Assembly: GCF_965363235.1 (NCBI RefSeq)
Contig: NC_134839.1
Coordinates: 100,087,743-100,151,742 of the forward strand
DNA length: 64,000 nucleotides
DNA from: Mytilus galloprovincialis
Taxonomy: Eukaryota > Mollusca > Bivalvia > Mytilida > Mytilidae
Direction of reading: 5' to 3'
Shown: piece by piece, positions 19,007 through 57,606 of the stretch
Layout of the letters: each line of letters begins with the position of its first letter
Numbering within the stretch: the first letter of the stretch is position 1
Notes under the pieces: model-generated
What the model saw: only the letters and a program-made list of their open reading frames with translations
Told to the model about the DNA's origin: nothing
Databases searched by the model: none
Position numbers and translations under genes: made by a program

Positions 19007-20558
19007 CTTGTTCTGTACATTTTTTTAAGTTTTTCTGAGCAATTTGACAAGCAGTATACAATTTTTCTTTAAATCTAGATACATAGTCTAAAAGATTCAA
19101 GTCAGTATGTTCAATAAGCCACTTTTCCTTAATCAATTTTAACGGTCCCCTTACAGTATGACCAAATACCAACTCAAAGGGACTAAATCCAAGGGATTCT
19201 TGAACAGCCTCTCGAACCGCAAAAAGTAGAAAGTGAACTCCATCATCCCAGTCTCTGTCAAATTGAAGACAAAAAGTTCTAATCATGTTCTTCAATGTTT
19301 GATGAAAACGTTCTAAGGCACCTTGAGATTCTGGATGATAAGCACTTGATCTGTACTGAGCAATCCCTAACTGGTATACGACTTGCTGAAATAAACCTGA
19401 CATGAAATTTGATCCCTGGTCGGACTGTATAGACTTAGGAAGTCCTACTAATGTGAAAAATTTGATCAAAGCTTTGACGATAGTAGGTGTCTTGATATTT
19501 CTGAGCGGAATAGCTTCAGGAAAGCGGGTAGATGTACACATGATTGTCAATAAATATGCATTTCCAGTCTTGGTCTTTGGTAAAGGTCCAACACAGTCAA
19601 TTAGAACTCTGCTAAAAGGTTCGTCAAAGGCTGGAATAGGCAGAAGTGGTGCTGGTGGTATTTTCTGGTTAGGTTTACCAACAACCTGGCATATATGGCA
19701 TGATTTGCAGTATTCTGCGACATCATTTCTAAGTCTGGGCCAGTAGAAATGTTGCAATATTTTTAGGCAAGTCTTCCTTATACCTAAGTGCCCAGCCAAG
19801 GGGGTGTCATGGGCAAGACCAATAATTTCTTGCCTATAAACTTTAGGCACCACCACTTGGTATAGCACTCTCCATTCCTCCTCTGGGGTGGCATCAGGAG
19901 GCCTCCACTTCCTCATTAAAATGCCGTCCTGATGGTAATAGCATTCGGCCACTTTGTCTGCTTCCTCCTGTGGTTGAGCTCTCTGGCTGAGCTGAAGAAT
20001 CTCAGAGTCTTTATGTTGTTCTTCAGATAAATTCTTTCGGTCTAATGAATGGCTGTTAACGTCTGGCCATGGCATAATAACATTCTTGTTAACACTAGGT
20101 GGTCTTGTAATGGCCTTTTCTGAGCTACCAGGACCTTCAATGTCAGCTATAAAAGTGTCAGAAAGGTCCATGTAATCAAACTTGTCTTCTTGCAAATTCT
20201 GATTTTGTTGTTTTCTAGCCATCGCCCTAGTAACAACACAAGCTGGATACAATTCAGCATCATCTTCAGGTGATTTAACATCCACCACCGGTTCACTGGT
20301 AACAATTGGTTCAGCAACCACTTTGTTCCTAGCTAGATCATTTCCTAGCAATAATGTAACACCCTCAACAGGGAGATTAGGACGAACACCTACAACAACT
20401 GGTCCAGTTATCAAATCTGACTTCAGATAAATACGATGGAGAGGAACATCTATACAACCTAACTCTACACCTTGTAACAAAACGGAGGCACCAACAGAAG
20501 TATTCTCGGACAAAGGCAACACACCTTCTAACAATAAAGTCTGAGAAGCTCCAGTGTC
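18990..20558 (-). CDS. Gypsy pol part 1: aspartic protease and integrase
   Basis: The frame is open from just upstream of the protease motif D-T-G-A-S (20544-20558) and runs to 18990. After the protease comes a spacer. Counting residues from position 20534, the integrase zinc module follows (H242, H249, C279-x2-C282), then the catalytic core D313, D372 and E408 with 35 residues between the last two, matching the D,D-35-E pattern. S-D-Q-G-S-N-F and S-A-Y-H-P-E-S-Q-G-A-L-E-R are typical of Gypsy/retroviral integrases. The GPY/F tail sits in the next frame. The gag frame overlaps its 5' end with a -1 offset. An AUG start is not evident, so expression by frameshift from gag is likely. Confidence 0.92.
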   Translation of the reverse strand, partial: DTGASQTLLLEGVLPLSENTSVGASVLLQGVELGCIDVPLHRIYLKSDLITGPVVVGVRPNLPVEGVTLLLGNDLARNKVVAEPIVTSEPVVDVKSPEDDAELYPACVVTRAMARKQQNQNLQEDKFDYMDLSDTFIADIEGPGSSEKAITRPPSVNKNVIMPWPDVNSHSLDRKNLSEEQHKDSEILQLSQRAQPQEEADKVAECYYHQDGILMRKWRPPDATPEEEWRVLYQVVVPKVYRQEIIGLAHDTPLAGHLGIRKTCLKILQHFYWPRLRNDVAEYCKSCHICQVVGKPNQKIPPAPLLPIPAFDEPFSRVLIDCVGPLPKTKTGNAYLLTIMCTSTRFPEAIPLRNIKTPTIVKALIKFFTLVGLPKSIQSDQGSNFMSGLFQQVVYQLGIAQYRSSAYHPESQGALERFHQTLKNMIRTFCLQFDRDWDDGVHFLLFAVREAVQESLGFSPFELVFGHTVRGPLKLIKEKWLIEHTDLNLLDYVSRFKEKLYTACQIAQKNLKKCTEQDENMV

Positions 20559-22042
20559 CCGTAAAATCTTAATAGGCTGAAGAGTGGTATCATCAACTCA
20601 ACAATAGAAATAAACCCATCAGACATAAAGGGTTTATATTCCTCCATGTAATCACAAAAACTAGACTTAAAAGCCTGACGCGCAGGGCATTCCAATGTAC
20701 TGGTATTATAAGGTGTCGTACAAGCACTGGTCTTCGGCTTATTATCTCGTTCATTCTTCTTCTGGAGTCTAAAACAATCAGCCATCAGGTGACCAATCTT
20801 CTTACAATAAGCACAAGTCAGTGACTTCTTCTCAAAAGTATCAAATTTTGGACTAGACATATTATAACTGGACTGACTCTTATTCTGTGCAACAGACTTA
20901 CTATCAGTACGCTCATTGCTTTGATTTTTGTAATTTCCACTGGAAGTATTGACATTTTGACCCTTGAAACTTCTTTTATGTGAAAGAGTATAATTATCTG
21001 AAATGACAGCTGCATCATGTATCGACTCAACAGTTTTGTCGTGTAAATGTGTTTTTAAGTCTAAATGAACACATAGTTTGAACTCTTCTAATAATATCAA
21101 TTGTCTTAGGTTATCAAAATTGTTATCTGTTTTCTTTGACGTAAGCCATTTGTCAAATAGATCTTCTTTTTCCCGAGCAAATTCCACATATGTTTGTGAA
21201 TCAAACTTTTTATAAGATCTAAATTTCTGTCTATATGCTTCTGGTACTAGCTCATAAGCTTTCAAAACTTCCTGTTTTACCGTGTCATAATCAGAACTTT
21301 TTTCTGATGGAAGTGCGGAGTATATTTCAGCGGCCTTCCCCTCAAAAACACTTTGCAGCATCGTAGTCCAATACGGCATAGGCCATTTCAAATTGTTAGC
21401 AATTTTCTCAAACTGTGGAAAATATTTATCAACTGTTTTTTCACAAAATTTTGGAACCAAACGTATGTTTTTTGCTGCATCAAAATAATCTGATTTCGAG
21501 TGAACTTTAGTGTTGCTTTCTTCTTTGACCATTTCAATTTTCAGTTTCTCCATCTCTAGCCTTTCCCTCATTTCAAGTTCTTTTAATTTCTCCCTCTCCT
21601 TCATTTCCAGTTCTTTTAATTTAAATTCATCTTCTTTTTCTTTTTTCTCCATTTCTAACCTTTCCTTCATTTCCAGTTCTGCCTGTTTTAATTTAAATTC
21701 ATCTTCTTTTCTTTTTTCCATCTCCTTCAATTCCAGTTCTTTTAATTTAAATTCATCTTTTTTTCTTATCTCTAGTTCTTTTAATTTGAGTTCATGTTCT
21801 AATTCAAGCTGTTTTAATTTAAAGGCGTCAATATTTTCGACCTTAAGTTCAAGAGCCTCTTCACCTAAAATTTCTGCGTCAACTAATTTGTCTATAACCA
21901 AATTTTTTATAATTTGTTTTCTCATAGATACTTTAAAATCTAATTTCAGATGCTTAGCAAGCAACACTAATTCCTCTTTCTTTAAATTATCAAACCCCTC
22001 CAGGTCTGGCGTTTTCAAAAATTTACCAGCATCAAATGCCAT
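20528..22042 (-). CDS. Gypsy gag with SAP-like start, coiled coil, SCAN-like capsid and zinc knuckle
   Basis: 504 codons from a clear ATG just inside the 5' leader. Residues about 15-55 look SAP-like. Residues 70-175 are a charged heptad-rich coiled coil built of repeated F-K-L-K-E-L-E type units. Residues about 268-355 resemble the SCAN fold family (Y-R-Q-K-F-R, L-F-D-K-W-L, L-R-Q-L-I-L-L-E-E-F). A single C-x2-C-x4-H-x4-C zinc knuckle (CAYCKKIGHLMADC) follows near 419-432. SCAN domains of vertebrate zinc-finger proteins are thought to come from the capsid of Gmr1-like Gypsy elements, which fits the pol order here. The last 25 or so residues read into the protease region in a different frame, so the native end may be by frameshift. 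Confidence 0.9.
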   Translation of the reverse strand: MAFDAGKFLKTPDLEGFDNLKKEELVLLAKHLKLDFKVSMRKQIIKNLVIDKLVDAEILGEEALELKVENIDAFKLKQLELEHELKLKELEIRKKDEFKLKELELKEMEKRKEDEFKLKQAELEMKERLEMEKKEKEDEFKLKELEMKEREKLKELEMRERLEMEKLKIEMVKEESNTKVHSKSDYFDAAKNIRLVPKFCEKTVDKYFPQFEKIANNLKWPMPYWTTMLQSVFEGKAAEIYSALPSEKSSDYDTVKQEVLKAYELVPEAYRQKFRSYKKFDSQTYVEFAREKEDLFDKWLTSKKTDNNFDNLRQLILLEEFKLCVHLDLKTHLHDKTVESIHDAAVISDNYTLSHKRSFKGQNVNTSSGNYKNQSNERTDSKSVAQNKSQSSYNMSSPKFDTFEKKSLTCAYCKKIGHLMADCFRLQKKNERDNKPKTSACTTPYNTSTLECPARQAFKSSFCDYMEEYKPFMSDGFISIVELMIPLFSLLRFYGTLELLRLYC

Positions 22043-22108
22043 TTTGTAGAATTTTGTTGGCTAGTTATAATAAAAATATTAAACAAATTTTGAATAAAAT
22101 ATGTTCAG

Positions 22109-24570: not shown

Positions 24571-27500
24571 ATGGCTTTTTGTTTTAACTTTCCAAAAGGC
24601 TCAGAAGATAATGATCATAATACAGACGACATACTATTGGAAGGTATATTAAAAGCAATAGTTTACCAACGCTGATAATTTATTTGTCTCAAGCAGGCCT
24701 TAAATTTGTTGCAGAAGTCACAGGTATTTGGGGCATGGTGTTGAAGAATCTTAATAAATCATGCGTTGTGTTTTTCTATACGTTTAATCGTCGTGATAGC
24801 TAATGCATATAATATAACGTCACAGAGTAAAAGCGGTATGGTAACAACGTTACCATAACGTAATGTTTGTACTTCGCGTATTTTCCGACATTCTGGGGGC
24901 CGACAAAAGTGCAATATGTAACGAAAATTAAAAAATGTAAATTCACAATATAGATAAATAAATTTAAAGTTAATGTCCATCTCAACTAAATAATCAAATT
25001 CCTTAACCTTGACTGAACACAATTAAAGTTTATTTCTTAGTCCATTCGTGGATGTTTCTTCTGGCACGCAAATTGAATCCTCCCTTTGACATGACATTTC
25101 TCGCATCCTTGAAATATGTAATGGCTTCGTCATAAGTCTCAACGCTTGACAGTATATTGTCTACATATAAGTCCCTTTTCATCGTTTGTGTTATACTACT
25201 TTCATTTTCGTCCAAGTGCTTAAGTAGAGTGGCATTTAAAATAAATGGTGAGCATGTTGCGCCAAACAATATCGATTTAAACCTGTAAGTTGTAAGATTG
25301 CCATGTGGGTCTTTGGGGTCAGCTAACCAAAAGAAACGTGTAGCGTCACGATCCTTCTTGTCAAGTCCTATCTGTAAAAAGGCCTTTTCAATATCTGTAC
25401 TGATACCATATTTTCCGATTCTGAATCGCATTAATATTTCGTTAAGTCATTTAGATTTGGTGGCGTTGACATTAAGCAATCATTTAAGCTGGCTAAATCT
25501 TGCTGTGGTTTACAACTGCAGTCGTACACTATACGAATGGGGGTAGTCTCGGAATCTTTTTTAACAGGATGGTGAGGAATGTAGTGAATCATATGTTTGT
25601 TGTTATCATCTTCCGTATCTGGAACTCTCTCTATAAATCCTCTCTTTTCTTGGTCATTGATTATTTCACTGTATTTTTGTAGCAAGTGCGGTTCCCGGTT
25701 AAGGCGTCTAATGATATTCTCGGTCCTACCTTTAGCAATGGCCATATTTGAAGGCAAATCTGGGTGGTCAAGTTTCCAAGGCAACTTAGCCGTGTACTTT
25801 CCATTCTCGTAATCAATAGCTGTGTTCTGGTATGTCTGTAAAAAGTTGGTGTTCTCCTTGTTTTCACATGTATTGATTCCTATTGACTCAAGTGTCCAAA
25901 ACTTTTCAATCTCTGTCTCCTCCAATTGATGGGATGAAATGATGTTTAAAAGAACTGTAGATCTTGAATGCTGGCTGATATTTGCAATACTTGGTCCTGA
26001 TAACAAATATCCTATCTTTGACTGTACAGCGGTGGGTCCTTTTCCTCTTATGATTTTGTCCTCGATAATTTCCCAGTAATAATCCGCGCCTATTAGTAGA
26101 TCGATCTCAAAACGCTCTCCACTGTGTACAGAATGTGCAAGTTTAAGTCCTCTCAAATGTGGCAAGCTCCTTGTAGTCTGTGAAATGCTGTTATGAATCG
26201 GGACGGCAATTTCCGGTACAATGAGTGTGTTTATACGCACATTTTCTCCCGTGTTGGTCTGTAATTGTATTGTTGCAGTTTCCAAGTTACGAACTTTCTG
26301 AGATAAATCTCCGAACGCAGACAGTTGAATGCTGACTTTCCCCGTTGTTTTAATTTCTAGTTTATCGGCTAATTTCTGAGTGATAAAAGTACGTTGCGCT
26401 CCTTCGTCAAATAAGATGTTACATTCTATTTTTACGTCGTTATATATAACTGGTGCAGTTGCTGTTTTTAGAAGAATGTCGGGACTTACTTGTGATGCAT
26501 GCAATACGCTAGTTGTGTCTGTTGTTTCAACCACGTTGATAGCTGTCTGTTGTATTTTCGGCTCCTGCTTCGTACCTGTATTGACCTCTTTCCCTTTACA
26601 TATGCTTGTATGATGCATTCCGTTACAATTTTTACACCGTTTTGTAGACTTACATGCGGCCATCCGGTGTGACCCTAAACAGTTAAAGCATAACTGTTTC
26701 TGTTTGACAATTTGATTCCTAGCGTTTGCGTCTGTTACTTCAGAGCACTCCGTCGGATAGTGCTCACCTGAACAAAAAATACATGTATGCGTATTTACCT
26801 TCTTCCGTGTGTCAGTTAATTTACCTTTATTGTGTGATCTTGGTTGTGTACCTGTGAAAAATGCTGTGGTGTGCAATCTGTCCGGTTCCATGACTCCCTG
26901 TCCTGCCTCAAGTATTTCAATCTCTTTAGTTATTGATTTTCGTAAATTTTGCAATATCAAATTATCTCTCCCGTGTTCTCTTGCAATAGATTTTCTTATG
27001 TCAATCGGTAACTTGTCCAAAACTACAGGTACCAAAAGCGAACCATACATCTCTGGTGTTTGACCAAGTGACTCCAATCCTCGTACGTATGATTCTAATC
27101 TGTCTCCGTAAGACCTCCAGCTAAAAGCATCATTTGTTGGTGCGGGTAAATTCATGAGTGCTTTCATGTAAGCATGTATAAGTTTGCTAGGTTGTCCGAA
27201 CCGATCTCTGAGAAGGTTGACTGCGGTTTCGTAGTTACTATTAGTCAAAGCGAATCCCTCTACTGTTTGCGCGGCGCTTCCCTCTAGCTGGGCTTTGAGA
27301 TAATTAAACTTTTGGATTGGCGTTAATGTGTCGTTGTAGTGTATAGATGACTCGAAACAATCCCAAAATGTTTGCCACTTGAGAATATCTCCATTAAAAT
27401 AGGGTAAGTCTAACTTTGGAAGCCTATGGTAATTAGTTTTTGAAGATCTCGGTTCTGACGGGACTTGAAACATGACATTCTCTGACGGACGGATATGCGC

Positions 27501-30500
27501 TGCAGGGGCGTTAATTGAATACTGCTGGTTCATAGAATCTATTGCACATCTGTTCATATCAACTCCAGCTTCGGGTGTGAAATGATATGCGTCTGGGTTA
27601 AGTCTGCTCGTTGAAGGACCAACAGTATCATGCGAAATTATAGTATTTGTTTCAAAGGACTTAATAAATTTCCGAATTTGTCTAATTTTACAATCAAGTT
27701 CGTACATATACTCATCTGAGTCGGTGATTTCCTGCTCCAGATTTTCCTCCGATGTCTGTTCCAAAAGTCTGTTATTCAGGTCAATCAATGTTTTCTGTTT
27801 CTGCGTGACGGCATCATCAAGGGCTTCCACTTCGTCAACTTCTGTGTCTGTTTTTGACTTTAACTCGTCGAATTTCACCAGTAGCTTCGTGACGGCTCCT
27901 TTGTGTCCAGCACGAACTGATTTCAGCTTTGAATCCATATATATATCCAAAGGTTACGGCACCATTAAATGTTGAAGAATCTTAATAAATCATGCGTTGT
28001 GTTTTTCTATACGTTTAATCGTCGTGATAGCTAATGCATATAAGAGGGGGGGCAAGGGGGGTCCCAATAACAGCAAAACAGCAAACTGATTTGGCTCATA
28101 ACAGATAACAAGGAATTAAAATGGACAAAAACAGATAACAGTAAATGAAATATTAAAATAATTCGGTCTTTGACAAATCAGTATTTCTTATTACGGATAT
28201 AATCCTTTGTAATGCATTCCATTTTCTATGACTATGTTTTTAGTATTAATTTATGTATCTAGAATGTGTTTAAATTACTACTCAATATATTATAATATTT
28301 TTTATACGCTCGTTTACGGAACGTATCATGTTATACTGTTGACCGTCTGTTGTCAACATGTCGGACATTAACTCAAAAACTCTTTAACCAATTTGCATTA
28401 AACTTTGGGAAATTGTTTACATCTATTGACGTCAGCTCCCTTTTTGTTTTCTTTATAAATTTTAGATTTTAAGTTTCTGGGTAATGGGTTTTTATTCAAT
28501 AAAATTGGTGTTTTTTCAGTTTTCTGATAATATCTCAAAAATGTTTTCACAAAGCAAGGAATTTTGGTGAATTGTTTATATCTATTAACATGAGGTCACT
28601 TGTACGTCTCCGAGTTAACGGGTTTTATTAATTAAAAAGGGGGGATTTTCCAGTTTTAAGACATTAACACAAAAATGTTTTCAGCAGTTCTCATGAAACT
28701 TTGCTGAAATGTTTATATCTATTGTTGTAAACTCCCTTTCGATTTTTATTAATTTTAGATTTTATGTTATTGAGTTAAATGATTTTATTCATTAGAAAAA
28801 GGTGGTATTTTCTAGTTTTCAAAAATATCTCAAAACTGCTTTCAGCAGTTCTTATGAAACGTTGGTGTATTGTTTATATATATTGACTGAAGCTCCATTA
28901 GTTGCTAATACAAAAAATGACCTAAAAGAGTTTGAATATTCTGACTTTTTCTAAATGACCATTTAATGAGGTGTGTGAATTTTTCTTAATAAGACTGAGG
29001 CAAAGTGGTATATAGGGTAGCAAAATCAAAAGCACCAATTATAAGCAGGTAATTTATCAAGTACTTCGAACGAATTTTGACACTCCAAAAGCAATTTATT
29101 CCACTATTTTCAAAGGCCTTATTTGAACAATTTTTTATCAGCTGAGGTTTTTGAATGTACCAAGTGTACTAGTAAGTAGAATACATAGTTTAGTAGGGAA
29201 ACAATGGCTTGAAACGAAAGAAATCTTTGTTTGTAATGAGTTATGTGCAGCTTCGGACCCAAGTACATGGTTGGAACTTTCATTGTTCAATGCATTCGGT
29301 TCTGCTTTGAAAAGAATCACAGAGCTGAGTCTATGTACCATATTATATAAAAGGTTAACTGGTTGTTATGACCTAGTTCTTAATTGAGATCCTTGTCAGA
29401 TATTCCTGGCCATATGTTTTCCTTTTTGTCATATTAAGAATTGTTTTAATTTAATATGTTCGTACAGGAAACAAGGAACATTATTCTCATACAAAAAATT
29501 AAGATAATTCTAAATACACATTCATAAAAAAATGGAATTTATTACAAAGGATAATCATAAGATATACTTGAATTGTCCTGGACCTCACTTCTGTGATGGA
29601 TAAATGTTAATGGAATCCTTCTCTGAATACGGGACAAACATATTAGTAGTGGTAGACCCCAATTAATGTCCAATGATCTTTAATTTATACCGAATATTGA
29701 CTGTCAAAAAAAATGCTATTAGCTGCCTAACATTCCAATTTTCAATAACAGTTAACAGCAAATACATTATCACAATAACAGATAACAAAAAAACTAATAG
29801 CCCAATAACAGCTAACAAAGAATAAGACAATAACAGCTAACAGCAAATATATTTTCAAAATAACAGATAACAAAGAATTAAATTGCCCCATAACAGCATA
29901 ACAGTTAAACCCCTTGCCCCCCCTCATATAATATAACGTCACAGAGTAAAAGCGGTATGGTAACAACGTTACCATAACGTAATGTTTGTACTTCGCGTAT
30001 TTTCCGACACATGGACCTATGGAACGCCATGACTGCCTTATGTTAATGATCAGCATTATATGCAGTGCTCACACCATTATATTAAGTGCTCACAACATTA
30101 TATTAAGTGCTCACAACATTATATTAAGTGCTCACACCATTATATGCAGTGTTCACACCATTATATTAAGTGCTCACAACATTATATTAAGTGCTCACAA
30201 CATTATATGCAGTGCTCACACCATTATATTAAGTGCTCACAACATTATATTAAGTGCTCACACCATTATATGAAGTGCTCACAACATTATACGTTTTTTG
30301 TTGTATGATGAGATTGTTGTATGATGAGATTGATGTATGATGAGATCATTCGGTAAACATCGTTTTTTTGCGGAAATTACCGAATCCATAATTTGTAAAT
30401 TACGGTAATTCCCAGCAAACAAATTTAAACAGTTATTAATGTTTGGTGCAAAATAACTAGTTTGTGAATTTAAATTCTTTTAAGAATATAATTCGGACTA

Positions 30501-33500
30501 CGCCGCATTTTTGCGCCTGTCCCAAGTCAGGAGCCTCTGGTCTTTGTTTTTCTTATATTATTATAATTTTAGTTTCTTGTGTACAATTTGGAAATTAGTA
30601 TGGCGTTCATTATCACTGAACTAATATATATTCGTTTATGGGCCAGCTGAAGGACGCCTCCGGGTTCGGAAATTTCTCTTTACATTGAAGAACTGTTGGT
30701 GACCTTCTGCCGTTGTTTTTTCTATGGAGTCGGGTTGTGGTCTCTTTGATACATTCCCCATTTCCATTCTCGATTTTATGCTATACATAAAAGTCAAATT
30801 AGTTTCGACAATTTTCCATTTTTTTCCCCGTGAGTGATCCCTATCCATGAGAAAGAAGCCCCCACAGAAACAATCAAGATCCGCCGTCAAAAGTAACTTT
30901 CCAGATAACGAAAAAAATATTCAGATATGAAATTTTCAACCTTTGAGATTGATCCTAACATGGGATATGGAAAAAAATTGGTAGCAAAAATAACAGAAAT
31001 CCTCAGACTATAGACAAGCTTGTATGTGAGAAGAATTAGAACGCCAATCACAACAACGAGAAGAATTCACAGTAAAACAATACTAGAAGTTCTCCATTAA
31101 TATAATTATATTACAATTATATATAATAATGAGTATCTTTTTTTTGTGCTTCCGTTACAAAACAAATTGTGTGGACTTTAAATAAAATCAAAGAAGTGCT
31201 CAGCAACAAATAGCATTCCTCTTTTTTGTGTTGTTGCTATCATCTGGACCTAAACACAAATTTGAATCTTTTTTCGAGGTCCATTGTTATCAAAGAAGTG
31301 CGATCTAAAAGATATTATTCTTCTATGACTTGTAGTTGATTATATTTTGTATCTTAATGTACCTTAACCAGAATTAATTTAGGTCAAGTAGTTATCAAAG
31401 GTACCAGGATTATAATTTAGTACTCCAAATGCTTGTTTCGTCTACATAAGACTCACCAGTGACGCTCATATCAAAATATTTATACATCCAAACAAGTACA
31501 AAGTTGAAGAAAATTGAAAATGACTCCTTTTTCATGGACAATCGTTACTATCCAATTATAGTAAATCATTCTATTTTACTCACAGTTTGTTTCAATCTTT
31601 ACCTAAATGCAAAACTTAGATGCATGTTTTTTTATTAGTTGTTAGTGGCTTTGAACTAGCTGTCAGTAATTGCGAGTACTCTCAGATCAGTACTTATAGT
31701 GTCTTTTTGTTGTTGGGATATAGAAGTACCCGCCCACGTCTACTCTATTTTGTGGTAGATGGATTTATATTTGTACCCATCTGATGAGTTAAGCCTTTTA
31801 CAACTGATTTTCATAGTTCGTTCTTATGTTGTTCTGTTACGCCACTGTCCCAGGTTAGACGGAGGGTTGGTATCCCGCTAACATGTTAAAACCCGCCGCA
31901 CATTCTGTATATGTGGCTGTCCCAAGTCAGGAGGTGCCTATATTTCAGTGGTTGTCGTTTGTTAATGTGTTATATACATGTTAGTTTTTCGATCGTTTGT
32001 TTGTACATAAATTAGGAATGTTTTACGTTTATCATTTCGGGGCCTTCTATAGCTGCATGACTATGCAGTATGGGCTTTGCTCGTTGTCGAAGGCCGTACT
32101 GTGGCCGTTTAGTTGTTAATTTCTGTGATGTCATTTTGTCTCTTGTGGAAAGTTGTTTCATTATCAAGCATACCACTTTTTTTTATATATATTAACCGTG
32201 CAAAATGACGAACAAACATAGTAAACGTTTTTCATCCCCACAAACTCAGTTTTCATAAGAAATGATAACTTTAAATGAAAATAATGTTAAATTGGGTCTT
32301 GAAAGGGTAAAATTTATGGATTTTTTTGAAAAAAAGTGTGTTTCCAGTTTTTGGAGAAAAAAATAATTTGTTTTTGATTCTGAGAAAAAAAATTTGGTTG
32401 ATTCACCCCTAGCTGCCAATATATGTAATGCTAAAATTGAATTAAAAAAAATATTTTCGACTTGTCGCGAAAAAAATAAAAATCAATAGCCCCCCCCCCC
32501 ACCCCCCCAAAAAAAATTAAATGGTTGCTGCCTAAAGTTATGTTAAACACCTACTATGAAATGCTTTAAACTGCATTTTCCATATCTGTTAGATACTTAT
32601 TCATGTGAAATAACAAATTCTGAAAATGGATGCCAAAAATGACTCAATCATGACATATATATAAGCTAGCGTAATATAACGCTTATGTGTTATAGAAAGC
32701 TGACTGTTTTATTTAAAATGTAATTAAGCTTTTTTTAAACTGAGTACGGACTATAAAGTGGCACCTTGCTAAAGTTCTTCAGTAGGAAATGAGCTCGAGG
32801 AATATGTCATACAAATTTCCCTTCGATATTTCATTAAATAAGCTTTTTATTATTTCACTTACATTTTGCCATTCGTATTTCTTACGACGAACAGAACTAC
32901 TTTAATCATTCACTTCTTAGTTTCATCTTTTCCTTACTTATTTCAATCAGTTTTAAATATTGTATACTGCCTTATGATCACATGACTTTAATAACTGTTT
33001 AAATTTGTTTGCTGGGCATTACCGTAATTTACAAATTATGGATTCGGTAATTTCCGCTAAAAAACGATGTTTACCGAATGATCTCATCATACATCAATCT
33101 CATCATACAACAATCTCATCATACAACAAAAACGTATAGTGTTGTGAGCACTTCATATAATGTTGTGATCACTTCATATAATGTTGTGATCACTTCATAT
33201 AATGTTGTAACCACTGCATATAATGTTTTGACCACTTCATATAATGCTTTGACCACTGCATATAATGTTGAGAGCACTTAATATAATGTTGTGAGCACAT
33301 AATATAATGTTGTGAGCACTTAATATAATGATGTGAGCACTGCATATAATGGTGTGATCACTTAATATAATGTTGTGAGCCCTTAATATAATGTTGTGAG
33401 CACTTAATATAATGGTGTGAGCACTGCATATAATGTTGTGAGCACTTAATATAATGTTGTGAGCACTTAATATAATGGTGTGAGCACTGCATATAATGGT

Positions 33501-36500
33501 GTGAGCACTTAATATAATGTTGTGAGCACTTAATATAATGGTGTGAGCACTGCATATAATGGTGTGAGCACTTAATATAATGTTGTAAGCACTTAATATA
33601 ATGTTGTGAGCACTTAATATAATGGTGTGAGCACTGCATATAATGCTGATCATTAACATAAGGCAGTCATGGCGTTCCATATTATGGACCCCCTAGTCCA
33701 AATAATTATGACGTCTTGAAAGGCTATTATATTTTTTTTCTTTGACGCCTTACTTCGGACTAGGACCCCCCTTTTTTGGACCTCACTAAAAAAAATGTTT
33801 GGTGTTTTTTTATTTACAATTTTCTACAATGTATAAACATATATCAAAATTTTCTACAATGTAAAAATGTATAAACATATATCAAGTCTTAACAATCCAT
33901 TGCTAGTCGATTACAATACCTTTTTTACTATCCATAAGAGCTCCAAGTGAAAAAAGAAGTTCACTTGTGGCTCGTATGAATAGTAAAAAAGGTATTGTAA
34001 TCGACTAGCAATGGATTGTTAAGACTATGTTTATACATTGTAGAAAATTGTAAATAAATAAAAAACACCAAACATTTTCTTTTTTGTGAGGTCCAAAAAA
34101 GGGGGGGTCCATGCCCCAAATACCTGTGGCAGAAGTCAAAATTCAAACAAAATAGTTCCCTAGTGCTATAATATAAGACGCTGCAGGTTCATATCATTTA
34201 CATTCAATGTTTTTTATCGGATATTTTTTGTTACTATCAATGTTGAACCACATTTTTTATTGGATATTTTTTTATTACTATCAATGTTGAACCGCATGTT
34301 GAACCGCAGTTCAACATTGATAGTAAAAAAAATATCCGATTAAAAACGTTGAATGTAAATGATATCAACCTGCAGCGTCTTACATGTCTTATATTATAGG
34401 ACTAAATAGTTCCCCAACTTAATAAATATCGTTCTGGGAACAAATGCAAGTTTCTACGGTTTTAAATACTTTTTGAGAGATAAAAATATGCATTTTAGAA
34501 TACAACTGCTAGAATAGTCAACCTACAGAATTTACCAACCATTGTTTTCATTATATGTTCATGAAACATTTGCGACTGGACATTATATAACCTAGAAACA
34601 ATTAATAATTTGTATACCATTCAGTTGTATCATGTTGACCAGGGTTGACAAAAAGCTGGTATGATGAATAATACTATTGACCATCAAATTCTATACTGAT
34701 CATTGCTGATAGGATCAGCATTTTCCTGTACCCTTATACAAGTAGTGATCGACACATGTTGTACTATAAATCCAAGATTACTCTGACGTCCAACAGCTGT
34801 TTTGGTAATGATGGTTGTATAGCCTCTTAACTAAGGAAATAAGCAGCTACCCATTTTTCTTCTACATATAAATGCATAATAAATATTGTCTATACTGTCA
34901 TGACTGTATATAATTACACATGTAATTATAAACATTAGAAAATTCCTTAATATTTATTTTTTCACAGCTCCTGTAAGCAAGAAAAGGAAATTGGAGCAAT
35001 TTGTGACTGAATTTAAAGAAATAACAGTTGAAGACTGCAAGGTACATTTTATTTTTACTATTTTATTACAAATGTAGAACTGTCTTCATTGTATTCTTTT
35101 GTTTTATGAAAATATAGCAGGTTTATATCCCTGCGTAATTAAAGACTTAATTTCTATGATGAAAATTGTTTTCATTTTCATTTAAGATTAATAAAAAAGC
35201 TATACATATTATCAAGTTGAGCAAAACAAATAAATAGTAAGCGTTGCTACTGTTTTTACCCTAACTAAAAATTAAAAGTATCCTTATGACAGAACAAATT
35301 GTAAGAGTTTTTTAGATTTACTTTAGATGTAAAATTTAGAGAGATGTTGTATTAATGCCAATAAGTAATACATCTATCAGAGACAAACTGACATGGATGT
35401 AAGGTATGTAAGCTAAAAAGATCCCAACATGACAAGATTTTGAACTATTCAATTGAAAAATTCAAATGACATGAATGACCAGATTTATAATAAAACAACA
35501 TAAAATAGAAGGAAACATTTCAAACATTAAATTAAGACAACCACTGAATTTCAGACTCCTGACTTTGGACAGGCACATACAGAATGCATAAATTACAATC
35601 ACAAAGCTTGATATAACACTTCATTTCATTATCATAGTTGTAGCTTAAAATATAATTATAAAAATTAAATGCTATTTTAATAATTTTAAAGGATTGTAAA
35701 AGCCTTGATCAAGCATACATTTTTAATATGAAACGTGGAATAGAAAATGTGCTTAGGTCAACGTTTTACAGCCCAAGAAAATTATAATGAGAAGCACTCT
35801 ATTCTAAAAACTCTTCTGTTTATACAGACTGACTATCCATATGATTTAGAAGTGAACACATATCAGCTGACAGATAATATTACTGTGTCTTGCTATGATG
35901 CAGGAGCAATCGAGGAGATTCTGAAGAAAGATAAAGATGACTCATCATCTGTTGTCAAAGCAACCAGTTGTCATTCTGACTTAGTTCCAAATGTGTATGA
36001 AGGTAACTTACCGTTCTTGAATTATGCCCATTTTATATGTAACTTGGAAGATTGGAATATTTTTGTTTTAAGAATTGAATGCTTCTTTTTGTAAATTTAT
36101 TGTGGTGTAAAAGCGTTGACCGAAGTACATTTTGTATAAAGCGTGAAAGCGCTTTATTCTAAATATGTCTAGGATCATGCAAACACGATTTTTATCAAGT
36201 TTTATTTAATTCACATGTGCACTTTATTGTGGGACCTTGTGTCATCATGAATGATAAATTTTATTCTAATGCAATTGCTTATGGAATAACATGTGATGTG
36301 CAGTTACCCAATCAGAATAAAGTATTATAATAAAACATACATCTAATGTAATTATTCCTTACTGTAAATTAAGTTTTCCTCATCCAAATTTTCTGAAACT
36401 CATAGACAAAGTTGTTCTTTTATTTAAGCTGAGTTCACCATTGGGCACTGTGATTACAAATAGTCTTCTAAAATTACTTTTTAAAATAAAATTTTCCACC

Positions 36501-46475: not shown

Positions 46476-48147
46476 CCATAATATTGTGCCAAGAAGCAGA
46501 TAGTATGTATTTAGCTGTTTTTTTTCCTAATAGAAACAGAAAGATGGCTTAATAAGTTTGGATTATCAGTTTGGTCTATTATTGATAAGTCAAATTAAGA
46601 GATAATTGATGGAAGCTATACTTTATTTGTTTTAACATGGGTAGGCATTATATTCGTGATTATTTTTGCACGAGTGATAGTGAGGGCTAAAATAATATTT
46701 ATGTCCGATGTATATAAGTGTACAGTGTTTGTGTAAGCTCTTCACTGAACCTCCCTTTTTCATTTGTAAAAAGGCAAACGACTGGCAATGTGATTTTTCA
46801 GAGGGAGGAGTTTGAACAGCCAGCATTAACAGCTGTCGTACAATGTATCTAGGTCAAATATGTCAATTTCCATTTGCAACACATTACAGTCATAATAAAT
46901 GAATCAGTAACAACATGTGCATCATTTAAGAGTGTGGAAGTGTTTTAAGTTAATTAAATATATTAAATGCATGCTTATTTGATAAAATTCATTATTCTGC
47001 AGTAGTCAATATATGCATGTGCAAAGAAATTTTATTGGATTTAGAGCATGGGTTTATTCACAAAGAGAAAGGAACATGTTATATTAGAATTAAAAATAGA
47101 TCAAATAAAAAGTCATCCATTAAGAAATAAAAGTTGTCCCTTTTTTGAAAAGTATAATTATGAAACTTTAATGTCAATTTCTTGGTGAAAACTCAATTTG
47201 CATTTCAGCAAAGAAGTTTTTCTGTGGTCTGATTAAACAAATTTAAATATATAAAATAAAACAAAATGGAAATGTCTTTTAATCAAACAAAAATAACAAG
47301 ACCAACACATAATGGTATATCACATAACTGAATTAACTATATTGTATATATAGTAACATATTATTTTAAAATAGTGGAGACTCACCAAAATCACACTAAA
47401 ATTACAGAGCACAATTTGGTTAAAGAAATTATTTCTCAAAAAAGAATATTAATTATTTCATAATATAAAACAAAAATGCATTTGAATGAAAAATGAGTTA
47501 AAATTCCTCTAAATTCTTAATGCACTGTCACCAGTATCTGAGACAAGATACAGTTATAAATGGGCTATGTAACAGATTTTATAAAAATTTACATACACCT
47601 TTGGTCAACAACATTTCTAAATGTTTTTAAATATATGGAATTTAATTTGGCAAGTTGAAGAGATTAAGACATTTTTGAGAAAGGTTTTCAACAATGTTGT
47701 GTGCTTGGACTGCTTCCTATACATATGTTTACTAAGTTTGAAAGAATCCATTCCGTAGTGTTTAAAAAATAAAATAAAGTGCATAATTTTTTAATTCCAC
47801 TTATTATTTCAACGAGCCAAAGATGTATGCAATATTGTTGATATAGCCCATTTATTGTTGAAGAAGCAAATATATATATTGTAACAGAAGTTACACTAGC
47901 AGCCTACCTTGTCTTTGTGTTTGACAAATTATACATATGTATGTATAATTTTGTATAAATAAACATTTTGTACATCGAAATGAGAGCTACGTTTACATTG
48001 GTATTACAAAAAAATGTATAATTGGTAGTCAAAACAAATATACAGTTGTATTTATATATATATATTGATAACTTTCTATTCAACTCTGAATCTTTTCTTA
48101 ATATATAAATCAAACAATTGATGTCAAATAAAAAAAAAAACATGCAA
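46476..48147. other. Intergenic between the two convergent genes, no gene seen
   Basis: AT-rich sequence without recognisable exons or repeats of note. It should contain the 3' UTR of the minus-strand locus. An AATAAA on the minus strand lies at 47851-47856, about 290 nt after the ankyrin ORF stop, and is a possible but unproven poly(A) signal. Confidence 0.5.
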
Positions 48148-48957
48148 TCAAATATATTTCAATTCCTCTAGGCTCAGAAATTCTTTTATTAATGTTGGCA
48201 AGGGTATTTGATTCAATTTTTCAATAAATTTAGGTTTGAGTAAACTACGAATACAGATTCTACATTGTTGCTGAAGAAAAACTGGTCTTACATCAAAGTG
48301 AAAGCTTTCAGCTGTATGGTAATACTGATTGATAGTGTATGTTTGGTATATAGCTTCTTTGCTGAACTTTGCACCTGCTAGAATAAGCATTTTGGTGGTT
48401 TCCAACTGGTTCTGAATTAATGACTGTATCAGTGGTGACACACTTGTCCCGTTAAACCATCCACTCATGTTAACATTACAGTTATGGTGCAGAAGTATTT
48501 TAACACAAGATGGAATGTTTTTCAATACAGCATGAAGAAGAGGTGTCTTGTACATGTAATCTTGAGCATCCACATTGGCACCAGATTCCAAAAGCATTGA
48601 GGTCATTAGATTATCTCCCCTGATAGCAGCAGCATGCAATGGTGTTTGTCGACGTTTATTTGAAAAACAGTTTACATTGCTGCCAGCTTCTATCAATACA
48701 GATAAGAGATTAACGTTGGGTGAAAACATAGCAGCCCATAAAAGTGGGGTGAATCCTCCCCAGACTCGGGCATTTGGGTTAGCGCCATTCAGTAATAAAC
48801 TCTGAACAACTTCAATGTTCCCATAACGGCTTGCCCAGCACAAAGCAGAATCAAGAGCTACTTGGTCACATCCAATATCCAATATAGATTTCACAACAGA
48901 GTTATCTCCACTTTGTATCGCCAATATTAAGTCAGCGTGGAGATCTGGATTGTGCAT
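48148..48957 (-). CDS. Ankyrin-repeat and SOCS-box protein (ASB-like)
   Basis: 269 codons in a single open exon. About six ankyrin repeats span residues 5-195, with classic A-L-C-W-A-S-R-Y-G-N-I-E-V-V-Q-S-L-L-L-N-G-A-N-P-N, T-P-L-H-A-A-A-I-R-G-D-N and T-P-L-L-H-A-V-L patterns. The last 40 residues look like a SOCS box: a BC-box type start (C-R-I-C-I-R-S-L-L) and a Cul-box like I-P-L-P-T-L-I-K-E-F-L. In the ASB family this box recruits Elongin B/C and Cullin-5 for ubiquitin ligation, while the ankyrin part selects substrates; the substrate here is unknown. The start has A at -3. The ORF begins about 31 nt after the LYR microprotein stop on the same inferred exon, so it is probably the second frame of a dicistronic mRNA. 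Confidence 0.88.
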   Translation of the reverse strand: MHNPDLHADLILAIQSGDNSVVKSILDIGCDQVALDSALCWASRYGNIEVVQSLLLNGANPNARVWGGFTPLLWAAMFSPNVNLLSVLIEAGSNVNCFSNKRRQTPLHAAAIRGDNLMTSMLLESGANVDAQDYMYKTPLLHAVLKNIPSCVKILLHHNCNVNMSGWFNGTSVSPLIQSLIQNQLETTKMLILAGAKFSKEAIYQTYTINQYYHTAESFHFDVRPVFLQQQCRICIRSLLKPKFIEKLNQIPLPTLIKEFLSLEELKYI

Positions 48958-48988
48958 TTTAATGTCTTTTTTAGCTAAATTTGTCTTT

Positions 48989-50304
48989 TTAAACTAACGC
49001 ATTTCTTTCAAGAAAAACTTGTCCTTTCTGAAAATATATAAAAAAAGTTCAGCATACAAAGGATTATAAAAGTTACCTGTTTAATGCACTAAGGCCATAA
49101 ATTTTTAGAAAGAAATAAACCATTTCACGACTTTCAGTTTTGAATTTTTAAAAAGGTTGAACTACAAATGTATGAAACTATACACCAAGCTCCAGAAGAG
49201 ACAAATTTGTAGTAACCTTCAGAAATTTACATCACAGCTTAAATGGAATACTTATTTTGCTTCCATTTATGCAAAGAACACACAATTTTCATTGAGATTT
49301 AGACAAATAGCTGCTTACCAAAAATAGAGATCGATTGGTTCAATGACAAATATAACATGCAGATCAGGATAAGAACATGTTGTTAATAGATATTGGAAGA
49401 TGTGGTATGAGTGCCAATGAGACAACTCTCCATCCAAGTAACATTTATAAAAGTAAACCGTTTTAGGTCATGGTACGGCCTTCAACACAGAACTTTGTCT
49501 CACACCGAACAGCAAGCTATAAAGAGCCCCAAAAATTACTAGTGTTAAAACATTCAAACAGGAAAACCAACAGTCTAATCTATATAAAAACGAAAAAACG
49601 AGAAACACTTATGAACTTCAGATTCCTGACTTAGGACAGGTGCAAACAACTGCAGTGGAATGAAATGTTTTAATGGTACAAAACCTTCTATCTTTTTTGC
49701 TGCTTTAAATTTGTTCTAGATGGCCAACATTGCTTAGCCTGATTTTTAAATGTTCTTGTTCACATATAGTAACAGTTTCCAGAAAGACAGTCCATGATCA
49801 TCCAACCCAAATTATGAAAAGGCCAATCTGTGTTGTGTACTTTGCTAAAAAGAGGCAAATACCAATGCATTGTATTCAGGATTTTGGTTTGACCTGGACT
49901 TGGATTGCAGTAACAACCCTTCACAATTTTAGTGCAGCAAGCATGTAATTACCAGAACAATCTTACCCAAAATTTGCATTTATATACATGTATCAGGAAC
50001 AATGTAAATACATCACGAAAAAGAACTGATTTTTGAACTCCCATAGGTTTTTTGAATGATGAAAAAACCTACTGCGAAGGAATATCAATATGAAAAGTTG
50101 GATGCCAAATGAATATGATTTGCATTTTTAAATTACCTCAATACATCTCTGAATATCTTCCTTCCTTTTTAAGGTTTTATTTTTCTCAAACTCTGAACGA
50201 ATTCTTTGGAAATAGTAATCTTTGTCAGTAAACTGAAGTGATCTCCCCTTCCTGAGTAATTTTCTGTACAGAGAAATAACTTGTATAGATCTACATTGGA
50301 TCAT
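48989..50304 (-). CDS. LYR-motif microprotein, MIEF1 upstream-ORF (L0R8F8) type, 2 exons
   Basis: 68 residues: exon 50304-50137 (56 codons, ends GAG|gtaatt) and exon 49027-48989 (12 codons and TAA, after acceptor tttcag). The ATG at 50304 has A at -3, and an acceptor (tttacatttcag) ends 5 nt before it, so a 5' UTR intron is likely. The motif S-L-Y-R-K-L-L-R-K-G-R is the LYR signature, followed by F-T-D-K-D-Y-Y-F-Q-R-I-R-S-E-F-E-K-N-K. After splicing, the end K-G-Q-V-F-L matches the pattern of the human 70-residue microprotein encoded upstream of MIEF1. That protein acts in mitochondria with MALSU1 and the acyl carrier protein on the mitoribosomal large subunit. Other small LYR proteins are possible but fit less well. 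The downstream partner here is an ankyrin/SOCS ORF, not MiD51. Confidence 0.85.
49395..49660. repeat. Mussel-type dispersed repeat in the LYR gene intron
   Basis: 'gtggtatgagtgccaatgag', 'acaactctccatccaagtaa', 'ttaggtcatggtacggcctt', 'acaccgaacagcaagctata' and 'gattcctgacttaggacagg' follow the usual order of this mussel family (compare 43915-44015). It lies between the two coding exons of the microprotein. Confidence 0.78.
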
Positions 50305-50309
50305 TTTAT

Positions 50310-50600
50310 CTGAAATGTAAACATAGCAGGTAATTGATTGATTGTAGGAAGGCATCCAAGAAAAAAATTAAAATAGCCTTGCCAGACGTCATAATTATTT
50401 GGACTAGTACATATATATACAAATCAATAAAGCAGCAGACTCACTGAGGGAATGGCGAGTTCATGGGACAACAGAATCAAAACAAGGAAAGTTAAAAAGT
50501 GCATGGTTAGGAAAATGTCTTATTTAGAATGAAAATATATTGATATTAATACATTTTTTCTTATCCGCTTGCTTTTAATTTACATTTCACCAGGATATAA
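50310..50600 (-). other. Upstream of the LYR/ankyrin transcript
   Basis: An acceptor at 50310-50312 implies a further upstream 5' UTR exon. I could not place its donor or the promoter with confidence. Confidence 0.4.
50370..50400. repeat. Short repeat shared with 33690-33730
   Basis: 'agacgtcataattatttgga' / 'ctagt' is the inverted match of 'ctagtccaaataattatgac' / 'gtct' next to the foldback element at 33694. It is probably a terminal fragment of a dispersed element. Confidence 0.55.
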
Positions 50601-54355: not shown

Positions 54356-54620
54356 TTACATCATGTTAGATCTTAATTTTTGTGCACGAAATATAAATTT
54401 ACCCAAATTACACAATTCTCTAAGATTATTAGAACTCATTAATTGTATATATTTATACATAGAAGGTTTTCTCCAATAATATGGTTTTATAAAATAAGAT
54501 CTAAGACCTTGATAAGTAGGACATTTTAAAATAAAATGCATCTCATCTTCAATGTCATTTTTACAAAAACTACATAGTCTATTACTTCTTGGAATTGCAG
54601 AATAGCGACCACATTCTATA
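54356..54620 (-). pseudogene. LINE C-terminal zinc-finger-like tail
   Basis: Reads C-S-F-C-K-N-D-I-E-D-E-M-H-F-I-L-K-C-P, a CCHC-type cluster typical of the end of many LINE ORF2 proteins. It is separated from the preceding open stretch by a stop and a frame change near 54683. Confidence 0.7.
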
Positions 54621-54682
54621 GCTAAATCATGACTAATAAGTCTTATTTTGGTAATACATGTCTTATAAATAACTGGTATTGG

Positions 54683-55504
54683 TTAACATAAATAATTTTG
54701 TAAACAAAAATTTTGAACCATATATCTATAACTTGTACATTTCACTAAATTATTCATTTGGCTGTCAAAATCTTGCTTCAGACAATCAAACAGGCGTTGT
54801 TTAATTATCAAGTAAAAACTACTGGAGAGCTTACTATCTAAAAATAAACCTTGATTATACCAAATATCACCTAAACCTATACTGAGCAACTCATTTTTAA
54901 TAAAATACAACCAATTTGTCTTATTATTTGGACATTTTTGTAAATCGTCATATAAAAAACAGTAACAGTTTTTCAAAATACAGTTTGTAGTACATAACAG
55001 CTTAAACCAGTATTTAAAAATTCGACATTTTCTGGTATGCAATAATGGCAATCTACCTAGCTCGTAGTACACCATGACATTACTAGTAGAGCTTTTTACT
55101 TTCATAATATTTTTACAATAGCCCAGATGTATCCTTTCTATAGCTGGGGCCTTGTGAGCGCCCCAAATTTCACAACCATAACACAGTACACTGTTTATAT
55201 AAGTATCAAAAAGCGAAAGTAAAGTTACAAAATTCAAATATATATCTTTTACATTTCTCCTTAAGGCAAACACAGCTTTTCTACCCTGTTCTGAGAGTTT
55301 CTGCTGTAACACATTATATTTACCATTAAAATTTAACAAAATACCAAGATAACTAAACTTATCTACAACTTCTATTTCCTGGTTATTATAATACCATTTC
55401 TCATTGTCATGTATTTTTCCACCCTTTCTAAAAACAACAATTTTCGTTTTTGCTATATTCACACTAAGTGACCATTTGGAGGTATAATCATACAAAGTAT
55501 CCAA
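54683..55504 (-). pseudogene. LINE RT thumb and post-RT region
   Basis: 273 codons beginning within the RT thumb (W-S-L-S-V-N-I-A-K-T-K-I-V-V-F, F-S-Y-L-G-I-L-L). It continues with L-C-Y-G-C-E-I-W-G and a long region of the kind found in LINE ORF2. It overlaps the RT frame by 17 nt in another frame. Confidence 0.82.
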
Positions 55505-56195
55505 GTAATGTTTGTAATCCAGATACAGTTTCTGAAAAAATAACCATATCGTCAGCGTACATTAGTAAAAATAAATTTAATTCCTTCATCTCATAAGGAA
55601 TAGAGTCACTATTTATAAAAGCCATTTCACAATCATTGACATACATAGAAAAAAATATCGGTGATAATACTTCACCTTGCATCAAACCTACTTCATTAGA
55701 AAAATAAACAGAGTTGAACCCATCAACACTTACACAAGAAGAGACATTAGAATACATTGCTTTGATAACCATTAAAAATTTACCTTGTATACCAATTTTT
55801 GATAGTTTATACCATAACATATTTCTTTGAACAGTGTCAAAAGCTTTCGTGTAGTCTACAAAACAACAATAAAAACGATTTTTGGCTGAGAAGGATTTGA
55901 AAATTAATGATGTAAGAGCAAAAATAGCATCTACTGTACCCAGACCGGGACGAAAGCCGAACTGGGCATCGGTCACAATATCAAACGTTTCCGACCAGTC
56001 TATCAAACGTTGATTAAGAACGGACGTAAATAACTTTCCAAAATTACTGACTAAGCTAATCCCTCTGTAGTTGTTCGGATCAAGCACACTACCCTTCTTG
56101 AATATAGGTATAAGTATGGCTTTAGCCCAATCTGTAGGGAAAATTCCGGACTGTAAAATTCCATTAAAAATGTACAGTAATACAGGCATAAACAC
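55488..56195 (-). pseudogene. LINE reverse transcriptase core
   Basis: 235 codons with P-I-F-K-K-G-S, N-Y-R-G-I-S-L, F-G-F-R-P-G-L-G-T, D-Y-T-K-A-F-D-T-V and the active site Y-A-D-D-M-V-I-F. G-L-M-Q-G-E-V-L-S-P has E in place of the more usual D/C. Neighbouring parts are in other frames, so no full-length polyprotein is made. Confidence 0.88.
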
Positions 56196-56683
56196 ATCTT
56201 TGTATTCAATAACATTTTCAAAATGTCATTTTCTGTAATTTCTCTATCAAGTTCCTCATAGACGCATTCACCATCAGTATCATGAAATTGGCTGTCGTCC
56301 AGTACAGCATCTGTGTCTGATGAGCACAATGACTTAAAATGTTCATGGAACAACTTTAATGGTACAGCATGTTTAGAGGACGCTTTCCTTTTAAATTTCT
56401 TGTAGAATAATTTAGGGTTTGTAAGTCTCATTATGTCTAGCATGTTTCCTTCAGTGCGCATATACTCTCGTTTCAAGCGACGTTCTAGTGTTTTATAGTC
56501 CTTTTTCGCTCGGATTAAATTACTATGGTTTAGTTGCGATTTCAGCCTATTAAATATATTTAAACAGTTTATATAGCGGCGATGAAGGTCTTTACACTGG
56601 GCGTTGAACCAAGGTTTATTATCACAAATGTTAGATCTGCAAGATTTATAATTGTTTGTCCTCTTTTTAAAAAATGGTGCCAT
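56051..56683 (-). pseudogene. LINE linker upstream of RT
   Basis: 210 codons, basic and helical, with N-K-P-W-F-N-A-Q-C-K-D-L-H-R-R-Y as in the endonuclease-RT linker of several LINE clades. The last part overlaps the RT frame in a different register, showing a frameshift near 56190. Confidence 0.75.
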
Positions 56684-56700
56684 AATGTCATTTAACGCCT

Positions 56701-57606
56701 TTTTTTAAAGGAATTTATTGGTGTATAAGCTGGACCAAGTCACTCACAAAGTTTGAAACATATCATAAAAGTCCCAAAGACTTTTATTTGTTTGGAATTG
56801 GTCGAGTTTATACACTTTATATACTTTATACTTTAAAAATGCGGTTAATCCCATATTAAAATCCAACCCCAAATGTTTTAAAAATAACTAAAATAGAAAG
56901 ATCATTTATATATTTTTAGAATGGTCTATATATATATCATATCATATGTTATTGGATGCCGAATTGACTTAAAATTGGTGCTGATTTCATCAGAGGTCTG
57001 TATAGCCAGTCAAGGTCGTTAAAAACTTCCATTTGTTGCGGATGCCGGAAAAACATCTTTATTGGTACCAAATTTTGATTTATGAAGACTGTTTATTTTT
57101 TTTTCAGAACCAGAAACCACAAGAGAGGTCATAAGATAAAAAATAACAATATTAATCTTCAATGTAAAAATTAAAAATAGATTAGAATTCCATCGCGGAT
57201 AAAACATATCATGGTCGGAACAGTTTTACTTATTTTGTCTCCCCAACGTCTTTGTTTATAAATGGCTGACAAGAATTAGGGCACTGCACGCTTCTTTCCT
57301 TTCTCATCTGTTGAGTTCATATTGCATCCTTTTCCGTTTGGAAAACCAAAGAAATGTCTGGTAATATTCAATGACTTACTGCAAATCAGTGAAATAATTT
57401 GCAGAATAATTATAATATTTATTAGATCTAAGAAAAAAAAACAGCTCAAAAACGTGTTTTCACAAGTTTATGCAAATCGGCGGTCTGGTTTCATTTGTTT
57501 TTTACATTCTCCCCGTTACATGTTTATCACATGTATGAATTTAATACTTGTCAATTTAGATCTGTTATCCATCCTTTATTGATTTTCTTTGCATGGTATT
57601 TATTAT
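56701..57606. other. Intergenic, nothing recognised
   Basis: No conserved exon or known repeat was recognised. A few short AT-rich ORFs are not supported. Confidence 0.5.

Follow-up and report, generated by a model that had tools for sequence, protein, structure and literature searches.

A MIEF1-type LYR microprotein frame and an ankyrin/SOCS-box frame on one exon in Mytilus galloprovincialis: a putative dicistronic gene

Among proteins hidden within a 'leader', the MIEF1 microprotein serves as a model case, and human MIEF1 has been described as a dual-coding gene (PMC6283296). On the minus strand of a stretch of 64,000 nucleotides from the mussel Mytilus galloprovincialis (RefSeq assembly GCF_965363235.1, contig NC_134839.1, positions 100,087,743 to 100,151,742; hereafter the window, the coordinates of which are used below unless another contig is named), a frame for a LYR protein of this kind precedes a frame for an ankyrin-repeat protein with a SOCS box. 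The question raised by this locus is whether the two frames are carried by one mRNA and, if so, how the microprotein came to stand before such a partner. We estimate the probability that the locus is a dicistronic gene, with a single mRNA carrying both frames, at roughly 60%. The locus is of a known dicistron type, but the same microprotein heads a different partner; if the dicistronic reading is true, the MIEF1 microprotein is the constant element of such genes and the downstream partner the variable one.

The LYR frame and its intron

The LYR frame consists of 68 codons, encoding 68 residues in total, that are distributed over two exons. The first 56 codons lie on an exon at 50137..50309 (read from the sequence and by script), which has a single match in the assembly, at 100%, and carries ATAAA before the ATG at 50304. 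The donor at 50137, GAG/GTAATTTA (GAG/GTAATT), interrupts the frame in phase 0 after codon 56. It opens a GT...AG intron of 1,109 bases (49028..50136), which ends in an acceptor, TTTTTTTATATATTTTCAG/AAAGGAC, that is preceded by a long pyrimidine-rich tract and places the start of the next exon at 49027. The tail of the LYR frame (48989..49027) supplies the final 12 codons, KGQVFLERNALV, and the TAA stop (48991-48989). Similarity to the human MIEF1 microprotein does not stop at the junction: five of the seven residues directly after the splice are identical (KGQVFLE versus human KGLVFLN). As a control, human KGLVFLN served as the yardstick for all AG sites, on either strand of the window, with seven open codons after them; the site at 49027 ranked first of 4,104 with a score of 23, and the runner-up reached 17. 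Because the protein match crosses the junction and 49027 is the best of the 4,104 AG sites, we judge from the sequence that the splice from 50137 to 49027 is real and beyond chance.

Immediately 5′ of the LYR exon stands an acceptor-like AG (50310-50311), and the run that ends at 50310, TTACATTTCAG, resembles an acceptor by eye. The presence of such a site just before the LYR ATG makes it likely that a candidate 5′ UTR exon lies further upstream; the base composition around the locus revealed no 5′ exon. Were transcription to begin nearby without a 5′ intron, an in-frame ATG at 50355 would lengthen the LYR protein by 17 residues (50304-50355).

The spliced protein scores 47.5 bits against Pfam Complex1_LYR, and its ungapped alignment to the human MIEF1 microprotein (58.4 bits) spans residues 8-63, with 31 identities in 56 positions. 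The LYR motif occupies residues 12-14 in mussel and human alike, and the downstream Phe is present, the F of IRSEF being aligned with human IRREF. Leading the PDB matches were the entries for MIEF1 upstream open reading frame protein (two chains, 58.4 and 58 bits) and for 'Predicted gene, 55359' (two chains, 55.4 and 55.2 bits), the latter presumably the mouse counterpart of the former; LYRM4 came next at 28.0 bits, and two protist chains named L0R8F8 scored 25.6 bits only, under LYRM4. By these scores the mussel protein is closer to the MIEF1 microprotein than to the other LYR subfamilies represented in the PDB, a comparison that spans the subfamilies with structures, which many subfamilies may lack. 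At this similarity the LYR frame was found once in the 1.38-Gb assembly (all three candidates scored), and a search of the assembly with the Pfam LYR model found five LYR exons (all 14 candidates scored). Against the human segment, the LYR exon in the window scored 134 and the other four scored 36-49, three of the latter being partial exons.

On the age of this microprotein two published statements conflict: PMC11293456 traces all twelve LYRM subfamilies, the MIEF1 microprotein included, to the last eukaryotic common ancestor, and PMC10032668 states that the MIEF1 microprotein arose during vertebrate evolution. The mollusc copy fits and favours the older date and sits badly with the latter statement.

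The ankyrin/SOCS-box frame on the same exon

After the LYR TAA and a spacer of 31 bases without an internal ATG (48958..48988), the exon of the LYR tail continues into an uninterrupted frame of 269 codons plus stop (48148..48957, ATG at 48957). Two intact, non-overlapping frames, one LYR and one ASB-type, are thereby observed on one exon. Under a single-base model, an open run of 269 codons at the local base composition has a probability of about 8e-10. The ankyrin-repeat part covers about residues 39-164 (48466..48843; Pfam Ank_2, Ank and Ank_4), with Ank_2 at 102.3 bits, and the SOCS box covers residues 228-261 of 269 (48175..48276), with its L-x3-C-x3-I and IPLP motifs and 37.8 bits against a Pfam cut-off of 23.5; both the ankyrin repeats and the SOCS box exceed their Pfam cut-offs. 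Ankyrin repeats with a C-terminal SOCS box are the domain arrangement of the ASB family. The same genome yielded four more ANK-SOCS proteins; the frame in the window is only 25-29% identical to the three of them that were aligned with it, and L228, C232, I236, P252 and P254 in the SOCS box do not vary among these four sequences. The protein thus bears the marks of a putative Cullin-5 substrate receptor, for which binding of Elongin B/C and Cullin-5 is predicted from the motifs.

In the assembly the ASB frame was found once at this similarity, at 607 bits, and the next match stands at 70 bits among the 143 of 1,825 candidates that were scored; the same scored candidates yield 180 ankyrin matches at E 0.001 or better. 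Structure prediction without an alignment gave a mean pLDDT of 38.9, a PDB search with the C-terminal 99 residues returned no match, and a search of viral contigs found no relatives.

The architecture of the locus had been set out in the original prediction, and it stands base for base: every coordinate of the LYR layout holds (56 codons, a phase-0 splice, 12 codons and TAA), the 31-nt gap and the 269-codon ankyrin-SOCS frame at 48957-48148 are correctly placed, and the claim that a MIEF1-type LYR frame lies upstream of a different main frame with Cullin-5 receptor marks is borne out by the ankyrin repeats and the SOCS box.

One transcript or two

We infer a single transcript in which the mollusc version of the MIEF1 microprotein would be encoded first and the ASB-type protein after it. 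The LYR-fold microprotein would be expected in the mitochondrial matrix, where it would bind acyl-carrier protein, associate with MALSU1 on the large mitoribosomal subunit and aid maturation of that subunit. The ASB-type protein would contact its substrate through the ankyrin repeats, and Elongin B/C and Cullin-5 through the SOCS box. The LYR frame would be translated by the majority of scanning ribosomes, of which a fraction would scan on past the LYR TAA and reinitiate at the ASB ATG 31 nt later. The ASB frame would be reached mainly by this reinitiation; its output would be low under normal conditions and may rise upon eIF2 phosphorylation, as has been suggested for human MIEF1.

The arrangement of start codons is compatible with such a path. 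In the spliced mRNA, the LYR frame opens at the earliest ATG past the acceptor-like site, which has an A at -3, and the ASB ATG lies in the context ATTAAA/ATG/C, with A at -3 as well. Three out-of-frame ATGs follow the LYR ATG, each with a frame of one or two codons, and none of the three (0/3) runs over the ASB ATG; with no upstream ATG frame overlapping it, reinitiation stays possible. This layout does not, however, appear to be tuned. The three out-of-frame ATGs in the LYR frame compare with an average of 1.70 in synonymous recodings, so that there is no depletion. Of the recodings, 69% for the locus in the window and 100% for the second LYR pair described below are likewise free of any upstream frame that runs over the start of the main one. 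Since ATGs are not depleted and an overlap-free layout is common by chance, we see no sign of tuning. Leaky scanning is left without support, since the LYR frame is not depleted of ATGs under the synonymous-recoding null. A LYR-ASB fusion protein is likewise rejected: the ASB frame is closed upstream on the same exon by TAG 48996-48994, the last codon of a two-codon frame, ATG CGT TAG (48994..49002; mRNA offset 193, ending at 202). An in-frame join of LYR and ASB at a purine-rich AAG before ACA AAT is theoretical only, the pyrimidine tract being absent there by eye.

The main rival to the dicistronic reading is an ASB-only transcript. In this alternative the locus comprises two overlapping units, an LYR mRNA from which the ASB frame is barely translated and a separate ASB mRNA, either initiated within the 1.1-kb intron or spliced without the LYR exon. 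In such an ASB-only mRNA the frame has its own ATG with the A at -3 and, after exon skipping, is preceded in its exon only by ATG-CGT-TAG. Moreover, reinitiation at the ASB ATG is expected to be weak: a shorter upstream frame and a longer spacer favour reinitiation (PMC6283296), and by this rule a 68-codon frame followed by 31 nt is a poor set-up. A further counterpoint to the dicistron is the ATTAAA at 48963-48958, directly 5′ of the ASB ATG, which could terminate LYR mRNAs early. Downstream, a candidate poly(A) signal, AATAAA (47851..47856), lies about 290 bases past the ASB stop and is weak, such motifs occurring at 1.6 per kb on this strand. The two-unit alternative is nonetheless unlikely in our estimation. 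An independent first exon for the ASB mRNA was not identified, which is a weak negative, and if the acceptor at 49027 is used, the LYR tail always lies within the ASB exon. Far less credible is an LYR gene with a mere non-functional ASB copy in its 3′ UTR: the 180 ankyrin matches among the 143 of 1,825 candidates scored make a stray copy conceivable, but the intact frame of 269 codons encodes both ankyrin repeats and a SOCS box, no close parent occurs among the scored candidates (the next being at 70 bits), and an old copy without selection would have decayed.

The dicistronic reading is supported by a second LYR gene of the genome that has the same layout, an LYR frame, 31 nt and a TAMM41 frame (L034; G000 C3:26174533-26175862, plus strand), in one uninterrupted stretch. 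Its LYR frame has 86 codons and scores 36 bits with the Pfam LYR model (on an 83-residue form); after the LYR TAA and 31 nt there follows a 345-codon frame with 376 bits for Tam41_Mmp37. This match spans profile positions 2-322 of 322 unbroken, and no further TAMM41 match was obtained from the assembly (both candidates scored). We take the LYR protein of this pair to resemble SDHAF1; a PDB search with it gave no LYR match and only two matches, both at chance level. Like the locus in the window, the pair has LYR first, a second frame after 31 nt on the same stretch and an acceptor-like site, TTTTGTAG, immediately before the LYR frame, and its two frames are presumably on a single exon. It differs in that the partner is a Tam41-family enzyme and in that no intron interrupts its LYR frame. 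Since the two loci share this design, the pairing in the window is less likely to be a stray adjacency, although the identical 31-nt spacing may be coincidental.

Such pairs are headed by two of the five LYR exons found in the genome. The other three have no same-strand frame of at least 80 codons besides the LYR frame itself within loci of about 3 kb; one of them, L030, resembles a 5′ exon, and for it this view covers the surroundings of that exon. We tentatively propose, at less than even odds, that genes for LYR microproteins have repeatedly become hosts to downstream genes. If it holds, assembly-factor frames would have become translated leaders gating a second protein at least three independent times, vertebrate MIEF1 being included. 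Together with the LYR-TAMM41 pair, the locus makes it a testable matter why mitochondrial assembly-factor frames precede other genes and whether they gate them under stress.

Relation to human dicistrons and origin of the pairing

Human MIEF1 (MIURF/altMiD51-MIEF1) resembles the mussel locus in having the same LYR microprotein family upstream and a longer, unrelated frame downstream, whereas the downstream frame is MiD51 in human and an ankyrin/SOCS frame in mussel. The spacer is reported as 98 nt in human MIEF1 (PMC6283296), in contrast to 31 nt in mussel, and the human upstream frame is placed within exon 2 (PMC5703645), whereas in mussel an intron divides the LYR frame, the tail of which lies on the exon of the main frame. 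The human microprotein is reported to exceed MiD51 in abundance by a factor of 2.6-5.7, and MiD51 rose when editing shortened the upstream frame and lengthened the spacer (PMC6283296). The ratio of the two human frames has been found to shift on eIF2 inactivation, with the strict criteria for resistant mRNAs being missed (PMC4383229). A second likeness is to SLC35A4-STREMI and 14 human dicistronic transcripts, for which the phrase 'bipartite origin, bicistronic transcription' has been used and in which a mitochondrial microprotein precedes an unrelated intronless frame (PMC13303939); the mussel locus differs from this set in being molluscan, in having a transcript predicted from genomic DNA and in showing no mark of a recent retroposition. 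None of TAMM41, SDHAF1, LYRM8, ASB and ankyrin is mentioned in the main text of PMC13303939, and no LYR-ankyrin dicistron is described in the literature searched, namely titles and abstract beginnings of open-licence papers, which is weak evidence of absence.

Retroposition, as 'gene symbiosis', is the route proposed for SLC35A4, and among human dicistronic transcripts 50% are stated to have an intronless downstream frame (PMC13303939). A recent retroposition of an ASB mRNA into the LYR 3′ UTR, which concerns the origin of the pair and is not exclusive of a dicistron, would accord with an ASB frame that has no intron and with a TAMM41 frame at the second locus that is likewise intronless. However, of the 63 genomic SOCS-box matches, which include proteins other than ASB, 36 fall within open frames of at least 200 codons; because long SOCS-box frames are common in this genome, the missing introns of the ASB frame are ordinary and uninformative. 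A close parent is absent among the 143 of 1,825 candidates scored, the longest flanking repeat between 49127-48958 and 48147-47500 is 10 (at least 10 in 202 of 500 shuffles), and a poly(A) tail was not seen by eye. With no parent, flanking repeats at chance level and long SOCS-box frames usual, we reject a recent event as improbable; an old retroposition of the ASB frame is possible.

The original prediction had proposed that the microprotein is the older gene and that its downstream partner has been exchanged. The first part agrees with PMC11293456 and PMC3578726, which together make the microprotein older than MiD51; the second found no backing, there being no sign that MiD51 was ever present. 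In an exchange, likewise not exclusive of a dicistron, the mollusc line would have swapped the MiD51 of an ancestral LYR-MiD51 pair for ASB, in keeping with the presence of the same LYR family upstream in both lineages. Such a swap requires MiD51 first, but MIEF1/MiD51 is reported to be conserved in vertebrates and not to have been found in invertebrates, yeast or plants (PMC3578726). A search of the assembly with MID51-like_C (PF21297) gave no match, weak evidence since no control genome gave a match either, versus at least 150 places for the related domain Mab-21_C (150 of 753 candidates scored), the matches to which indicate that the search was able to see the wider family. Because MiD51 is reported in vertebrates only and no MID51-like match was obtained, we regard an exchange as very improbable. 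The LYR-ASB pairing most likely arose separately from vertebrate LYR-MiD51, two acquisitions being the more economical account. Among the Mab-21_C places listed, many are clustered on contigs C13, C8, C12 and C5.

Elsewhere in the window, long retroelement-like frames (reverse transcriptase, integrase and gag-like, by eye) occupy 17231-22060, 25030-27953 and 54356-56704 on the minus strand. Similar short tandem units with SAHTIILSAHNII-like frames, also recognized by eye, lie in opposite orientation about 3 kb apart, at 29983-30308 on the plus strand and at 33237-33692 on the minus strand.
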